The position numbers were made by a program, and so were the translations under genes. A stretch of 34,847 nucleotides of DNA, taken from Patescibacteria group bacterium (GTDB lineage Bacteria; Patescibacteriota; Minisyncoccia; Phycocordibacterales; PALSA-1337). Shown here piece after piece: positions 5,142-28,768 of the stretch. How positions within the stretch are numbered: position 1 is the stretch's first letter; the number at the start of each line of letters is the position of its first letter. Location of the stretch: NCBI GenBank assembly GCA_028865095.1, contig JAGWLA010000001.1, forward strand, positions 201,806 through 236,652. Direction: 5' to 3'. The notes below the pieces were generated by a model that saw nothing but the letters and a program-made list of their open reading frames with translations, ran no database searches and was not told the origin of the DNA.

Positions 5142-5276
5142 GCGCGCGAGGAAAGGAGACATGCTCTGAGATACACGGAAAGCCCCCTGCAGGGGGCTTT
5201 CCTAGTCCTCGGCGTCCTTCTGCTGAAGGCCGCCTCCGGAGGTATCTCAAAGCATGTCTCCTCTCCTCGCTTGCGC
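5142..5276. repeat. Nested inverted-repeat element (outer stem around two hairpins)
   Basis: Arms 5142-5174 and 5242-5276 pair over 33 positions with two A-C mismatches and a two-base bulge (TT at 5271-5272). Inside are hairpin A at 5177-5202, an 11-bp perfect stem with loop TGCA, and hairpin B at 5211-5234, a 10-position stem with one mismatch and loop TGCT. It fills nearly all of the 146 bp between two convergent genes. Hairpin A with its A-rich 5' side and T-rich 3' side could terminate transcription both ways. The outer stem goes well beyond what a terminator needs. Confidence 0.8.
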
Positions 5277-10179: not shown

Positions 10180-11886
10180 ATGTCAATCGAACAAGACCTC
10201 GCAGCGGTCGTCAAAGGAAGCGTCGGCGCTTCCGGCGAAGCCCTTTCTGCCGCGAGCCACGATGCGAGCCTCTTCGAGGTCAGGCCGCGGGCCGTCGTCG
10301 CCCCGAAGGATGTGGACGACCTGAAGGCCTTAGTGAGATATGCGTCCGCGCATGAAGGGGTCAGCCTGACCGGCCGCTCCGCAGGCACCGATATGTCGGG
10401 TGGGCCGCTGACGGAGTCGGTCGTGGTCTCGTTCACGGAGCATTTCAACCATATCAAAGAGGTCGTCGAAGCTCCGCAGGGCGCGCTTCCGGCCCTGCCA
10501 GACGACGTCGCGGGCATCGACGTCGACGTGACCGGCTATGCCGTGACCGAGCCCGGCGTCTATTATCGCGATTTCGACAAGGCCACGCTGGAGAAAGGCG
10601 GCCAGATCATGCCTTCATATCCCGCGTCGCGCGAGCTCTGCACCGTCGGCGGCATGGCGGCCAACAATTCCGGGGGAGAGAAGACGCTGACGTACGGCAA
10701 GACCGAGCGGTATGTCCGCAGGCTCAAGATGGTCTGCGCCGACGGCAACGAATACGAGTTCAAGCCGCTCGCGCCCGCCGAAATGGCGGCCAAGAAGGGG
10801 CTGGCGACCTTCGAAGGCGAGATATACCGCGCGATGTCCGACCTCATCGGCTCGAATCACGGCCTGCTTCAAAAAGCGAAGCCCATCGTCTCCAAGAATT
10901 CCTGCGGCTATTATCTGTGGAACGTCTACGACGAGAAGACGGGCGTCTTCGACCTCTGCAAGATGATCGTCGGCTCGCAGGGCACCCTCGGCCTCATCAC
11001 CGAGATCGAGTATGCCTTGGTGAAGCCGAAGAAGCATTCCCATCTGCTGGTCGTCTTCCTGACCAGCCTCGACCAGCTCGGCGCGACGGCGGAGCGCGTC
11101 CTCGAGCAGAAGCCGGAGAGCTTCGAGTCATACGACGACCAGACGCTCAAAGTGGCGTTCAAATTCCTGCCCCAGCTCATGAAGCAGATGGGCGGCAACC
11201 TGGTCACGCTCGGCCTGGAATTCATGCCGGAGATGATGGCGGTCCTGGAAGGCGGCATGCCCAAGCTCGTGCTCATGGCCGAATTCACCGATGACGACGA
11301 TGCCGCCGCCCTGGCCAAGGCGGTCGCGGCCCGCGAGTCGCTGAAGGGCCTCCACGAGAAGACGCTGGTGACCGCCACGGCCAAGGCCGAGAACAAGTAT
11401 TGGGTCATCCGCCGCGAGAGCTTCAACATGCTCCGGAAGCACATCCACGGCGTGCGCACGGCGCCGTTCATCGACGATTTCGTCGTGCCGCCCGCTTCGC
11501 TCCCCGCGTTCCTGCCGAAGCTGAACGCCCTCCTCGAGCCGTACAAGAAAGACCTGACCTACACCATCGCCGGCCACGTGGGCGACGGCAATTTCCATAT
11601 CATCCCCTTGATGGACCTGAATGACCATGAAAAGACCCAGCGGATCATCCGAGACTTGTCGGTCAAAGTCTACGCGCTCGTCCACGAGTTCCATGGCTCG
11701 ATAACCGGGGAGCACAATGACGGCATCATCCGCACGCCGTTCGTCAAGATGCAGTACGGCGAGAAGGTCTATCGGCTCTTCGAGGAGGCCAAGAAGATAT
11801 GGGACCCGAAAGGCATATTCAACCCGGGCAAGAAGGTCGGCGGGACGCTGGAGTATGCGTTCGACCACATAGTGAAATCGTCATGA
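10180..11886 (+). CDS. FAD-binding oxidase of the GlcD / D-lactate dehydrogenase type
   Basis: A 568-residue flavoprotein of the VAO/PCMH superfamily. N-terminal FAD-binding motifs: VSLTGRSAGTDMSGG and GGMAANNSGGEKTLTYGKT. The C-terminal FAD-oxidase cap has AGHVGDGNFHIIP and GSITGEHNDGI, close to the GHVGDGN and GEHGDG signatures of glycolate and D-lactate dehydrogenases. It probably oxidises a 2-hydroxy acid and passes electrons to a quinone or other acceptor. It lacks the 4Fe-4S CysX2CysX2CysX3CysP motifs of longer family members. Start 10180 is set by TGGTATAAT six bases upstream. The two-domain DoxX-like gene follows with an ATGA overlap, suggesting a joint electron-transfer role. Confidence 0.88.
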   Translation: MSIEQDLAAVVKGSVGASGEALSAASHDASLFEVRPRAVVAPKDVDDLKALVRYASAHEGVSLTGRSAGTDMSGGPLTESVVVSFTEHFNHIKEVVEAPQGALPALPDDVAGIDVDVTGYAVTEPGVYYRDFDKATLEKGGQIMPSYPASRELCTVGGMAANNSGGEKTLTYGKTERYVRRLKMVCADGNEYEFKPLAPAEMAAKKGLATFEGEIYRAMSDLIGSNHGLLQKAKPIVSKNSCGYYLWNVYDEKTGVFDLCKMIVGSQGTLGLITEIEYALVKPKKHSHLLVVFLTSLDQLGATAERVLEQKPESFESYDDQTLKVAFKFLPQLMKQMGGNLVTLGLEFMPEMMAVLEGGMPKLVLMAEFTDDDDAAALAKAVAARESLKGLHEKTLVTATAKAENKYWVIRRESFNMLRKHIHGVRTAPFIDDFVVPPASLPAFLPKLNALLEPYKKDLTYTIAGHVGDGNFHIIPLMDLNDHEKTQRIIRDLSVKVYALVHEFHGSITGEHNDGIIRTPFVKMQYGEKVYRLFEEAKKIWDPKGIFNPGKKVGGTLEYAFDHIVKSS

Positions 11887-13055
11887 AGCCACGTCGACAG
11901 CATTGTCCGGGAGCGGAGAGGATATCGCCCCTCGGAAGCGTTCGGAGCCTTGCAAGGCTCCTCGCCCGGTTCTCGGCGATTTCCCTGCCGGGAAATCGCC
12001 TGCGGATGTCCCTCGGGGCGATATCCTCTTCGCTCCTCATAGCTATGCCGTCGATCGCTTCGGCGCATGAGGTGTATGTGCTCACCCAAGGGCAGATACG
12101 GCAGGCGATCGGCGCGCCGTCGTTCAGCTTGGTGGGGGAGGCGATGGGCCATATCGGAGAGTTCGCCTTCTGGGCCTTCATCGGCGCCCTGGTGGTCGGC
12201 GGGGTCTTCTGGATATCGATCCTGCGCTTCTTAGAGCGCCGCTTCGACCCGATGCTCGTCAGGGCGAGGAGATACGCGACGCTCATCGCTCGCATCACCA
12301 TCGGCATCTCGTTCGTGGCGAGCGCCTGGTATCAGGCGACGTACGGGCCTGAATTGCCGCTCGTCTCCAATTTCGGGCCATGGTCGGGAGCGCTTACCCT
12401 CGCTCTCGCGGCCATCGGCGTCCTGACCATCGTCGGCCTCTATGCCCGGACGGCCGCGCTCGTCGGCCTCGCCATATTCGGCGCGGCGGTATGGCAGCAC
12501 GGCTCGTACATGCTCACGTACGCGAACTATCTAGGGGAGATGATCGTGCTGCTCATCCTCGGCGCGCATGAGTACAGCCTCGATAGCCTCTTGGCTCGGC
12601 GCTCGGGCCGCCGCGGCATGGGAGCGCCCGCATGGCTCGCGAGCATGAAGGGATATCTGGCGCCGAGGAGCTTCGCCATCCTGCGCGTCCTTTTCGGGGT
12701 GGCCCTCATATACGCGTCATATTATGCCAAGATCCTGCACAACAACCTCGCGCTCTTCACGGTCGACCAGTACCACCTCGACAAGATCCTCGGCTTCGAG
12801 CCGCATTTCCTCGTCCTCGGCGCGGCCATCGTCGAGCTCCTGATCGGGACGTTCTTCATCCTCGGCATAGAGATACGCTTCACGGCTCTCTTCTTCCTGT
12901 TCTGGCTGACCCTCTCGCTCATATTCTTCGGCGAAGCGGTCTGGCCTCACCTCATCCTCATCGGCATCCCCATCGCCTACCTCTTCTATGGCTACGACGA
13001 TTATTCCTTGGAGGGCTGGTTCTTCCGCAAGAAGAAGTACGAGCCGGTGCTGTGA
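11883..13055 (+). CDS. DoxX/DoxD-like membrane protein with two four-helix domains
   Basis: A 390-residue (from 11883) or 349-residue (from ATG 12006) integral membrane protein. After a signal-peptide-like SLLIAMPSIASA and HEVYVLTQGQI comes a helix, then two DoxX-type blocks: one with RITIGISFVASAWYQATYG and a second with ILRVLFGVALIYASYYAKI. It ends in a charged tail FRKKKYEPVL. ATG 11883 overlaps the FAD oxidase stop as ATGA, pointing to coupled expression. However, residues up to about 50 from that start are encoded by a nested-hairpin element, and a start at 12006 is possible. A role receiving electrons or quinone from the oxidase is inferred from context only. Confidence 0.7.
   Translation: MKPRRQHCPGAERISPLGSVRSLARLLARFSAISLPGNRLRMSLGAISSSLLIAMPSIASAHEVYVLTQGQIRQAIGAPSFSLVGEAMGHIGEFAFWAFIGALVVGGVFWISILRFLERRFDPMLVRARRYATLIARITIGISFVASAWYQATYGPELPLVSNFGPWSGALTLALAAIGVLTIVGLYARTAALVGLAIFGAAVWQHGSYMLTYANYLGEMIVLLILGAHEYSLDSLLARRSGRRGMGAPAWLASMKGYLAPRSFAILRVLFGVALIYASYYAKILHNNLALFTVDQYHLDKILGFEPHFLVLGAAIVELLIGTFFILGIEIRFTALFFLFWLTLSLIFFGEAVWPHLILIGIPIAYLFYGYDDYSLEGWFFRKKKYEPVL
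11911..12035. repeat. Second nested inverted-repeat element, over a gene N-terminus
   Basis: Arms 11911-11931 and 12015-12035 (21 nt each) pair at 20 of 21 positions; the exception is G opposite T. Inside are hairpin A 11944-11961, an 18-bp perfect palindrome (7-bp stem, loop TGCA), and hairpin B 11975-12000, an 11-bp perfect stem with loop TGCC. The layout is the same as at 5142-5276, although the arm sequences are unrelated. It begins 25 bases after the FAD-oxidase stop, and its right arm encodes part of the signal-peptide-like segment of the next gene. Confidence 0.8.
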
Positions 13056-19444: not shown

Positions 19445-20401
19445 CTACTCGCCCGTCGTGCTTCCGTTATAGTTCTGCGAAGGGGTGCCGGCCTGCCAGT
19501 TGCCCATCTTCTGGAAGTCCGCTTGGCACTCGGCTTGATGGGAAGGATCGGAACAGTATGCGTTGCAGGAAGCCTCGGAATCGCAGTTGCCGGGGCTCGG
19601 CATGCTCTGTTGTCCGGGCTGGCCGTTCATCGGCCCTGTGCCATTGTTATCTGATTGGCCGGTCGATGAACCGATCTGCCAATTGCCCATCTTCTCGAAG
19701 ACGGCCTGGCATTCAGCTTGATGAGAGGGGTCGGAGCAGTATGCATCGCAGGATTCTTTGGAAGTGCAGTTGCCGGGACCCTGGAAGCTCTTGTGGGCTT
19801 GCTCGAATCCGGCCGCCGAAGGGCCGGATCCTCCGGGCATGCCCTGACCATTGCCGTGAGGGCCGATCACATCGCCGACGCCGGCGGCTTCAAAGTCGGT
19901 CTGGCATTCCTGCATGTGGCTCGGCTGATCGCAGTAGGCCATGCAGCTCTTCTTGGACATGCACTCGCCGGGCATATGGCCGCCCGACTTGATGTATGCG
20001 AGCATCTTCTCGCCGATAGCGATGTCAGGGGTGCTGAAGCCATTGGCTTTGGCGAAGTCTATGCACGAAGACATGTTCGCTATGGTCGAACAATAGGCGT
20101 CGCAGGCATCCGGCGTCGAGCAGCCGCCCGGGCCTTGGCCTTTGGCTAGTATGGACGCGAAAGCCTGGGCGTCGTCCGCCTGGCTCTGGCTGATCATGCC
20201 GCTCTGTTTAGCGTAGTCGGTGCAGGCTTGCATATGCGCCGGATCGTCGCAATAGGCATGGCAGGCGCTCCGGCTGTCGCAGCCGCCGAGAGAAGCGATC
20301 GGGAACTGGGCTTGCGGAGCTTGGGCGTATGAGACCGATGCGCTGAAGATGGCGGCGAGCGCCATCGCCGCAGCCTTCCGGGAGAGAGTCGATGTAGGCA
20401 T
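19445..20401 (-). CDS. Secreted protein with five cysteine-rich repeats
   Basis: A 318-residue protein with a signal peptide (residues 1-26, ending SVSYA-QAP). It has five copies of a module with four cysteines spaced C-x5-C-x3-C-x8-C, typified by CDSEASCNAYCSDPSHQAEC. Copies 4 and 5 are nearly identical in their cores; linkers are rich in Gly, Asn, Pro and Ser. Each module probably forms two disulfides. Such repeats are, from memory, common in Parcubacteria, but no function is known; cell-surface binding is plausible. It is the second gene of an operon with the anchored protein at 20410-20658, eight bases apart. Confidence 0.8.
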   Translation of the reverse strand: MPTSTLSRKAAAMALAAIFSASVSYAQAPQAQFPIASLGGCDSRSACHAYCDDPAHMQACTDYAKQSGMISQSQADDAQAFASILAKGQGPGGCSTPDACDAYCSTIANMSSCIDFAKANGFSTPDIAIGEKMLAYIKSGGHMPGECMSKKSCMAYCDQPSHMQECQTDFEAAGVGDVIGPHGNGQGMPGGSGPSAAGFEQAHKSFQGPGNCTSKESCDAYCSDPSHQAECQAVFEKMGNWQIGSSTGQSDNNGTGPMNGQPGQQSMPSPGNCDSEASCNAYCSDPSHQAECQADFQKMGNWQAGTPSQNYNGSTTGE

Positions 20402-28741: not shown

Positions 28742-28768
28742 ACCGCGCGCCTGCGAGAGGCGCGCGGT
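28742..28768 (-). terminator. GC-rich hairpin, possible terminator of the small ORF
   Basis: An 11-bp perfect stem (28742-28752 with 28758-28768) with a five-base loop, followed on the minus strand by only three T. It separates the small ORF from the sigma gene promoter region. Confidence 0.5.

Follow-up and report, generated by a model that had tools for sequence, protein, structure and literature searches.

The DNA analysed here is a stretch of 34,847 nucleotides (the window) from the genome of a tiny uncultured bacterium of the Patescibacteria, denoted G000, the other genomes compared being given further G-numbers. On its plus strand, the open reading frame 11883..13055 encodes a DoxX-like membrane protein (Pfam DoxX, E 2e-4, slightly below the gathering score), and its start overlaps the stop of an FAD-oxidase gene as ATGA. 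Near its 5' end the gene carries in frame a 127-base folded DNA element (11909..12037, minus strand), which was delimited by folding, arm complementarity, a scan for its structural plan and searches with covariance models. The outer arms, 11910..11931 on the left and 12015..12036 on the right, comprise 22 nt each, are 95% complementary and enclose two inner hairpins, both assigned to the minus strand: hairpin 2 at 11944..11961 (GGAGCCT-TGCA-AGGCTCC), seen in both the fold and the scan, and hairpin 1 at 11975..12000 (GGCGATTTCCC-TGCC-GGGAAATCGCC), seen in the fold. The DNA fold of 11900-12045 has an energy of -47.3 kcal/mol, compared with a mean of -26.7 kcal/mol for dinucleotide shuffles, none of which (0/200) folded as well (z -7.0), and the minus-strand RNA fold of the element gave z -8.8. 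The nested-hairpin element that an earlier note had placed at 11911-12035 is thus real, and its reading of the inner loops as TGCA and TGCC is borne out; on the strand in which the family is aligned, the loops read NGCA, the TGCC of the plus strand becoming GGCA.

Under strict settings, a scan of ~235 kb (the window and a ~200 kb sample of the same genome, the remainder being covered by the model searches) for an outer stem with two inner hairpins returned this element and one other, and nothing in two Markov-1 resamplings. The four top-ranked stretches of a wider folding scan, namely a pair in the window and a single stretch on each of the contigs C13 and C4, all contain a common core once they are oriented alike, both window copies lying on the minus strand. 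In the DoxX-like gene the core, as matched by both covariance models described below, spans 11928..12017 (minus strand), and the stem core of its hairpin 1 recurs in the copy on C13. The second window copy (5142..5276, minus strand), identified by its fold and by a model match with E 2.7e-21, is located between the ends of two convergent genes, with its core match at 5165..5251. It had been noted earlier that the element at 5142 has the same plan and a different sequence, as if structure alone were kept. The common plan holds, but the difference in sequence is only part of the picture, as the core CGCAG[hairpin, loop NGCA]CGAG..[hairpin, loop NGCA] is common to both, which refutes a sequence-free conservation of structure; this core, and the information carried by the outer arms (an inverted copy of host flank, see below), are what the earlier reading missed. 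Both the element at 5142 and that at 11911 belong to a single family and lie on the minus strand.

The orthologues of the DoxX-like gene in G009 (MKPFLKQKKTSKLLGWLLAGLFAVIATPWVVSAHEVY) and G015 (MKNLTAFFGAIVLATASMGFVGFGSHASVASAHEVY) keep the ATGA overlap and the SAHEVYVL motif, with the residues surrounding the putative cleavage motif SAHEVY, and they have neither the element nor any palindrome in the signal-peptide region. The HEVY motif is preceded by 61 residues in the window protein and by 33 and 36 in the orthologues; the net gain is therefore 25-28 residues and not the approximately 42 that the element had been expected to add, although its span of ~42 codons was judged correctly, and hence some of the native signal-peptide codons must have been replaced. 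The right arm encodes GAISSSLL, which is part of the present hydrophobic stretch of the putative signal peptide, and on this ground it may be the native arm, while the distal part of the left arm was probably derived or copied from the host flank, as judged from other sites. That the stretch is an insertion is shown by the orthologues in two relatives that do without it; the comparison proposed earlier thus revealed element-free forms, rather than the same residues in every orthologue. The view that these bases simply belong to the gene and fold by coincidence agrees with their forming an open frame, but it is refuted by these orthologues and by the recurrence of the structured core at dozens of unrelated loci, and we give it practically no credence.

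A dispersed family and its landing sites

Modelling of the family across the genome, also proposed in the earlier note, was carried out with two covariance models, R1 built from the four top-ranked copies and R2 from 58 copies, and yielded 9-14 matches in G000. R1, with which the DoxX-gene element scores 78.0 bits, has matches in 29 of the 34 genomes of the genus, including 14 in G000 and 32 in G018, the weakest of them being marginal and some representing the same copy read on the opposite strand. R2 (whole-genome E 2e-14 for the DoxX-gene element, 9 matches in G000) matches 36 of 53 genomes and 6 of 10 genera of the family, and, at the level of the order, 39 of 297 genomes and 32 of the 165 genera sampled, with no match outside the order in a phylum-wide sample. 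The copies form one dispersed family across the genus. Judged by the DoxX protein, the nearest named relative of the host, and the only one found, is Candidatus Taylorbacteria, whose genome contains no copy at its DoxX locus. No Rfam family matched above its gathering score, and a limited search of the literature found no report of such repeats in Patescibacteria or Taylorbacteria. A second, GC-rich subtype with a different first hairpin (e.g. CGCGAAGGCG) was observed mostly within long genes (loci L043, L044, L046, L047, L048, L049, L055, L068 and L070).

Other copies are found in frame and free of stop codons in ligA (three genomes), dnaE (G000), uvrB, secA, tgt, mnmA, infB, folD and comF, essential genes among them, the gene names being assigned by sequence recognition and alignments; the initial in-frame screen kept open frames only, and a later homology search across ten genomes revealed no stops there either. 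The likeness to the palindromic elements of Rickettsia suggested by the earlier note is well served by these copies in housekeeping genes. One further copy lies in the 16S rRNA gene of G014, and many are located between convergent genes. Empty sites are available for uvrB (G018:C28 and G008), ligA (G000) and the rmuC-rplU gap (many genomes), and it is from such presence and absence between species that we infer movement. At the recR-rplU gap and two other intergenic sites, relatives possess copies in opposite orientations, which therefore represent separate insertions, and an orthologous pair in the same orientation (C7 of G000 and C27 of G018, locus L069), whose stem has decayed in G018, shows vertical descent. 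The convergent gap between recR and rplU has served repeatedly as a landing site and is represented by L111:11388-11543 (G000), L058:4633-4773 (G018), L116:1626-1764 (G015) and L117 (G017); in G017 the gap is occupied by nothing but a perfect palindrome of 30 bp, which takes in the recR end, and the element is absent.

In the 58-copy alignment all 31 core pairs vary on both sides, and the share of paired cells is 96.8%, compared with 69.8% after shuffling. G-U makes up about half a percent of cells in the inner stems, and in an unbiased count G-T and A-C occurred 42 and 27 times in the outer stems, and 4 and 6 times in the inner ones. G-T being not clearly above A-C, the pairing appears to have been determined in the DNA itself or on both strands, and not through selection on the RNA of one strand. 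Selection at the RNA level, judged by tolerance of G-U, was considered and rejected, as the stems have almost no excess of G-U over A-C. More broadly, the family could be a functional structured RNA or a bidirectional terminator whose fold is under selection, and not a mobile repeat, which would account for the strong covariation and for the many copies between convergent genes, while the avoidance of G-U could mean that both strands must fold. Such a role is, however, at odds with the copies inside coding regions and 16S rRNA, with both orientations at orthologous sites, with the decayed orthologous copy in G018, with the lack of an Rfam match and with G-U near zero, and we regard it as very improbable.

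Outer arms and host flanks

Among 19 pairs of copies whose cores are at least 90% identical, the identity of the arms is 0.68-0.95 at positions 0-6 and only 0.26 at position 7; from there it varies patchily as far as position 17 and lies near background past positions 18-19, whereas the two arms of each single copy pair almost perfectly with each other. In G018 the stem ends 18 or 19 positions out in 15 of 23 copies (median 18, quartiles 17.5-18.5). Since copies with near-identical cores have unrelated arms, each with near-perfect pairing of its own and a uniform end, the arms must be renewed between copies, paired and uniform in length. Maintenance of arms unrelated to the target by slow compensatory drift was considered as well, and is hard to square with near-identical cores that bear unrelated arms. 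Part of the arm may nonetheless be inherited or reflect a target preference, given that some subfamilies, such as three copies in G014, have common outer arms and that weak conservation is seen at positions 14-17 in the 19 pairs.

Occupied and empty sites indicate where the arms come from. The empty uvrB gene reads AAGGAGTCC, AAGGGT and TACAAAGG in succession, and the occupied one (G018:C23) reads AAAGAGTCC, the element, GGACTCCTT and ATAAAGG; the native AAGGAGTCC thus remains on the left as AAAGAGTCC, while its inverse, GGACTCCTT, stands on the right, with native sequence after it. Six native bases have been lost, and no source was traced for the 11 bases that separate the native flank from the core. 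In ligA of G018 the left arm GGGAATCCCGGCGC encodes IGNPGA, similar to LGSGIA of the empty G000 gene, and corresponds to the native loop in place and length, and the right arm GCGCCGGGG, the inverse of the left one, directly precedes the common TTCCCG.CGACC; in G003 this spot, before TTCCC, is occupied by a copy that was inserted independently. In the 16S rRNA gene of G014 the left arm GGAAACAGG is also present in the element-free 16S gene of G009, which lacks the inverse right arm CCTGTTTCC; the native site there was a hairpin already before insertion. In G015 the left arm covers the final codon of recR and its stop (CACTAA), and the inverse CTTAGTG lies beyond the element. At all four sites, then, one arm belongs to the host and the other has the appearance of an inverted copy of it, uvrB and 16S being the clearest cases, since in ligA the length of the host loop varies between species and the recR case rests on the conserved coding end. 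Native boundaries can be placed only to within a few bases, given a similarity of 77-91% between genes with and without the element and the variable length of the loops in which the inserts lie; the sites in folD, tgt, mnmA, secA and comF were also compared, and there the host loops are too variable to tell which arm is native. The G018 assembly holds two uvrB genes, L070 (on C23) and L187 (on C28), 77-91% alike at the DNA level, and the presence of two different uvrB genes in one assembly suggests that it includes co-binned contigs of a close relative.

Two other origins of the arms have to be weighed against copying upon insertion. The element might target pre-existing palindromes, such as terminator hairpins, in which case each arm would be one half of the target; a hairpin is naturally present at the 16S site, and terminator-like hairpins do occur at element-free sites (recR-rplU in G006 and G028, and the L056 site in G000). 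This reading is contradicted by the empty uvrB and ligA sites, where there is no palindrome, and a palindrome is likewise absent from the empty rmuC-rplU gap in about ten genomes and from the DoxX signal-peptide region of G009 and G015, which makes it an improbable general explanation. The main rival is a process in two steps, in which a short-armed insertion would later have its stem extended and perfected by template switching during replication (quasipalindrome correction). Template switching is an established route by which stems arise and become perfect (PMC8794818; PMC6649704), which fits the almost purely Watson-Crick stems counted above and the other perfect hairpins that occur without the element in the genus, such as the G017 palindrome at the recR end and long hairpins in 16S. 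Independent slippage should, however, scatter the stem lengths, while the stem ends in G018 are near-uniform, and near-identical, young copies already have fully different arms; we therefore consider the two-step process unlikely, if the most serious of the alternatives. The uniform stem end suggests instead that the extension of the arm belongs to insertion.

In the 16S genes of the genus (L217-L245), the segment around helix 39 is highly variable and often forms long, nearly perfect hairpins without the element. The 16S flanks of L152 (G230) and L072 (G014) are ~84% alike, though G230 is placed in another family, and G230 has a different hairpin at the spot of the G014 element.

Proposed mechanism and comparison with known repeats

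We favour, with a probability of roughly two in three, the interpretation that the family is a non-autonomous mobile palindrome similar to the Rickettsia palindromic elements (RPE), with an outer stem that copies the target flank in inverted form and ends ~18 bp past the core. The conserved unit would be a Y-shaped core, composed of the base of the outer stem, the two NGCA-loop hairpins and the conserved junction bases. Upon insertion the core would become attached to the target on one side, and the neighbouring host strand would serve as the template on which its paired 3' end is lengthened (snap-back copying), so that the far outer stem would become an inverted copy of the host flank and not a direct target duplication; the new end would then be rejoined to the other host flank, possibly by short homology. 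The order of these steps is conjectural, as is active transposition. In-frame copies free of stops would persist in genes as ~40 extra codons, presumably translated, and decay thereafter. A more tentative proposal, which we put forward with some reservation, is that the family represents a new class of mobile DNA, which would move as a folded Y-shaped hairpin and make a fixed-length inverted copy of the flank at each landing with the aid of a putative enzyme, within the order of its host.

The family inhabits very small genomes with little spare DNA, yet it enters essential genes and 16S rRNA. Each site keeps a readable record of how the stem was made, which renders the insertion mechanism testable, predicts a structure-recognising enzyme common to these bacteria and would account for stretches of extra residues in their core proteins.

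To our knowledge, protein-coding palindromes have been described mainly in Rickettsia, and their mode of movement is an open question. RPE are dispersed palindromic repeats of ~100-150 bp, a large share of which lie in frame in unrelated housekeeping genes and are tolerated as extra residues (PMC10969869; PMC6649704). The present family resembles them in size, in its palindromic nature and many dispersed copies, and in the in-frame, stop-free copies in ligA, dnaE, uvrB, secA, tgt, mnmA, infB, folD, comF and doxX. It differs, as far as RPE can be set beside it by description, in its occurrence in another phylum, in the Y-shaped core with two NGCA-loop hairpins and in outer arms that are unrelated between near-identical copies and match the host flank. 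The double-hairpin and repetitive hairpin-forming elements of mitochondria (Allomyces, sponges) are, according to the portion of the report drawn on here, small multi-hairpin repeats with no known enzyme that sit in intergenic DNA, in rRNA genes and in frame in protein genes (PMC2800124). The range of targets is similar, and so is the combination of conserved loops with variable, co-varying stems, a purely structural resemblance, but those elements are organellar and mostly shorter, and that portion of the report does not mention a copy of inverted flank (PMC2800124).

Like MITEs, the copies are short, non-autonomous, dispersed inverted-repeat DNA; unlike MITEs, they have no conserved terminal inverted repeats, the arms being near random between near-identical copies, and the flank copy seen at uvrB and ligA is an inverted one, with no direct target-site duplication. 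With REP/REPIN sequences they have in common hairpin-forming intergenic repeats with two inner palindromes, but there is no constant tag of the GTAG/CGTC type beside the palindrome (GTAG occurs in one subgroup only, internally) and no RAYT (Y1 transposase) gene in G000. A RAYT-type transposase was examined as a candidate mover and rejected, since a search with PF01797 found none in G000 and the Y1 loci examined had no element within them. Quasipalindromes produced by short-range template switching also have one arm of an inverted repeat copied onto the other (PMC8794818; PMC7202029); however, this is a local mutation process, which leaves unexplained the common core at dozens of loci and the uniform end of the stem.

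Several other repeats were encountered in these genomes. The rmuC-rplU gap of G012 (L123:5189-5392) holds a different palindromic insert (CGCGAAGGTGATGATCC ... GGATCCTCGCCTTCG), perhaps from another repeat family. Within the window, two 121-nt direct repeats (19488-19791), 79% identical, lie inside the gene of a cysteine-rich repeat protein, and an 11-bp perfect hairpin, ACCGCGCGCCTGCGAGAGGCGCGCGGT (28742-28768), is located just upstream of a sigma-factor-like gene. In G018 (C25, L062:1940-2000) a lone inverted copy of one element arm stands immediately before a complete element; it has the arm sequence of another copy 5 kb away and is perhaps a broken element.
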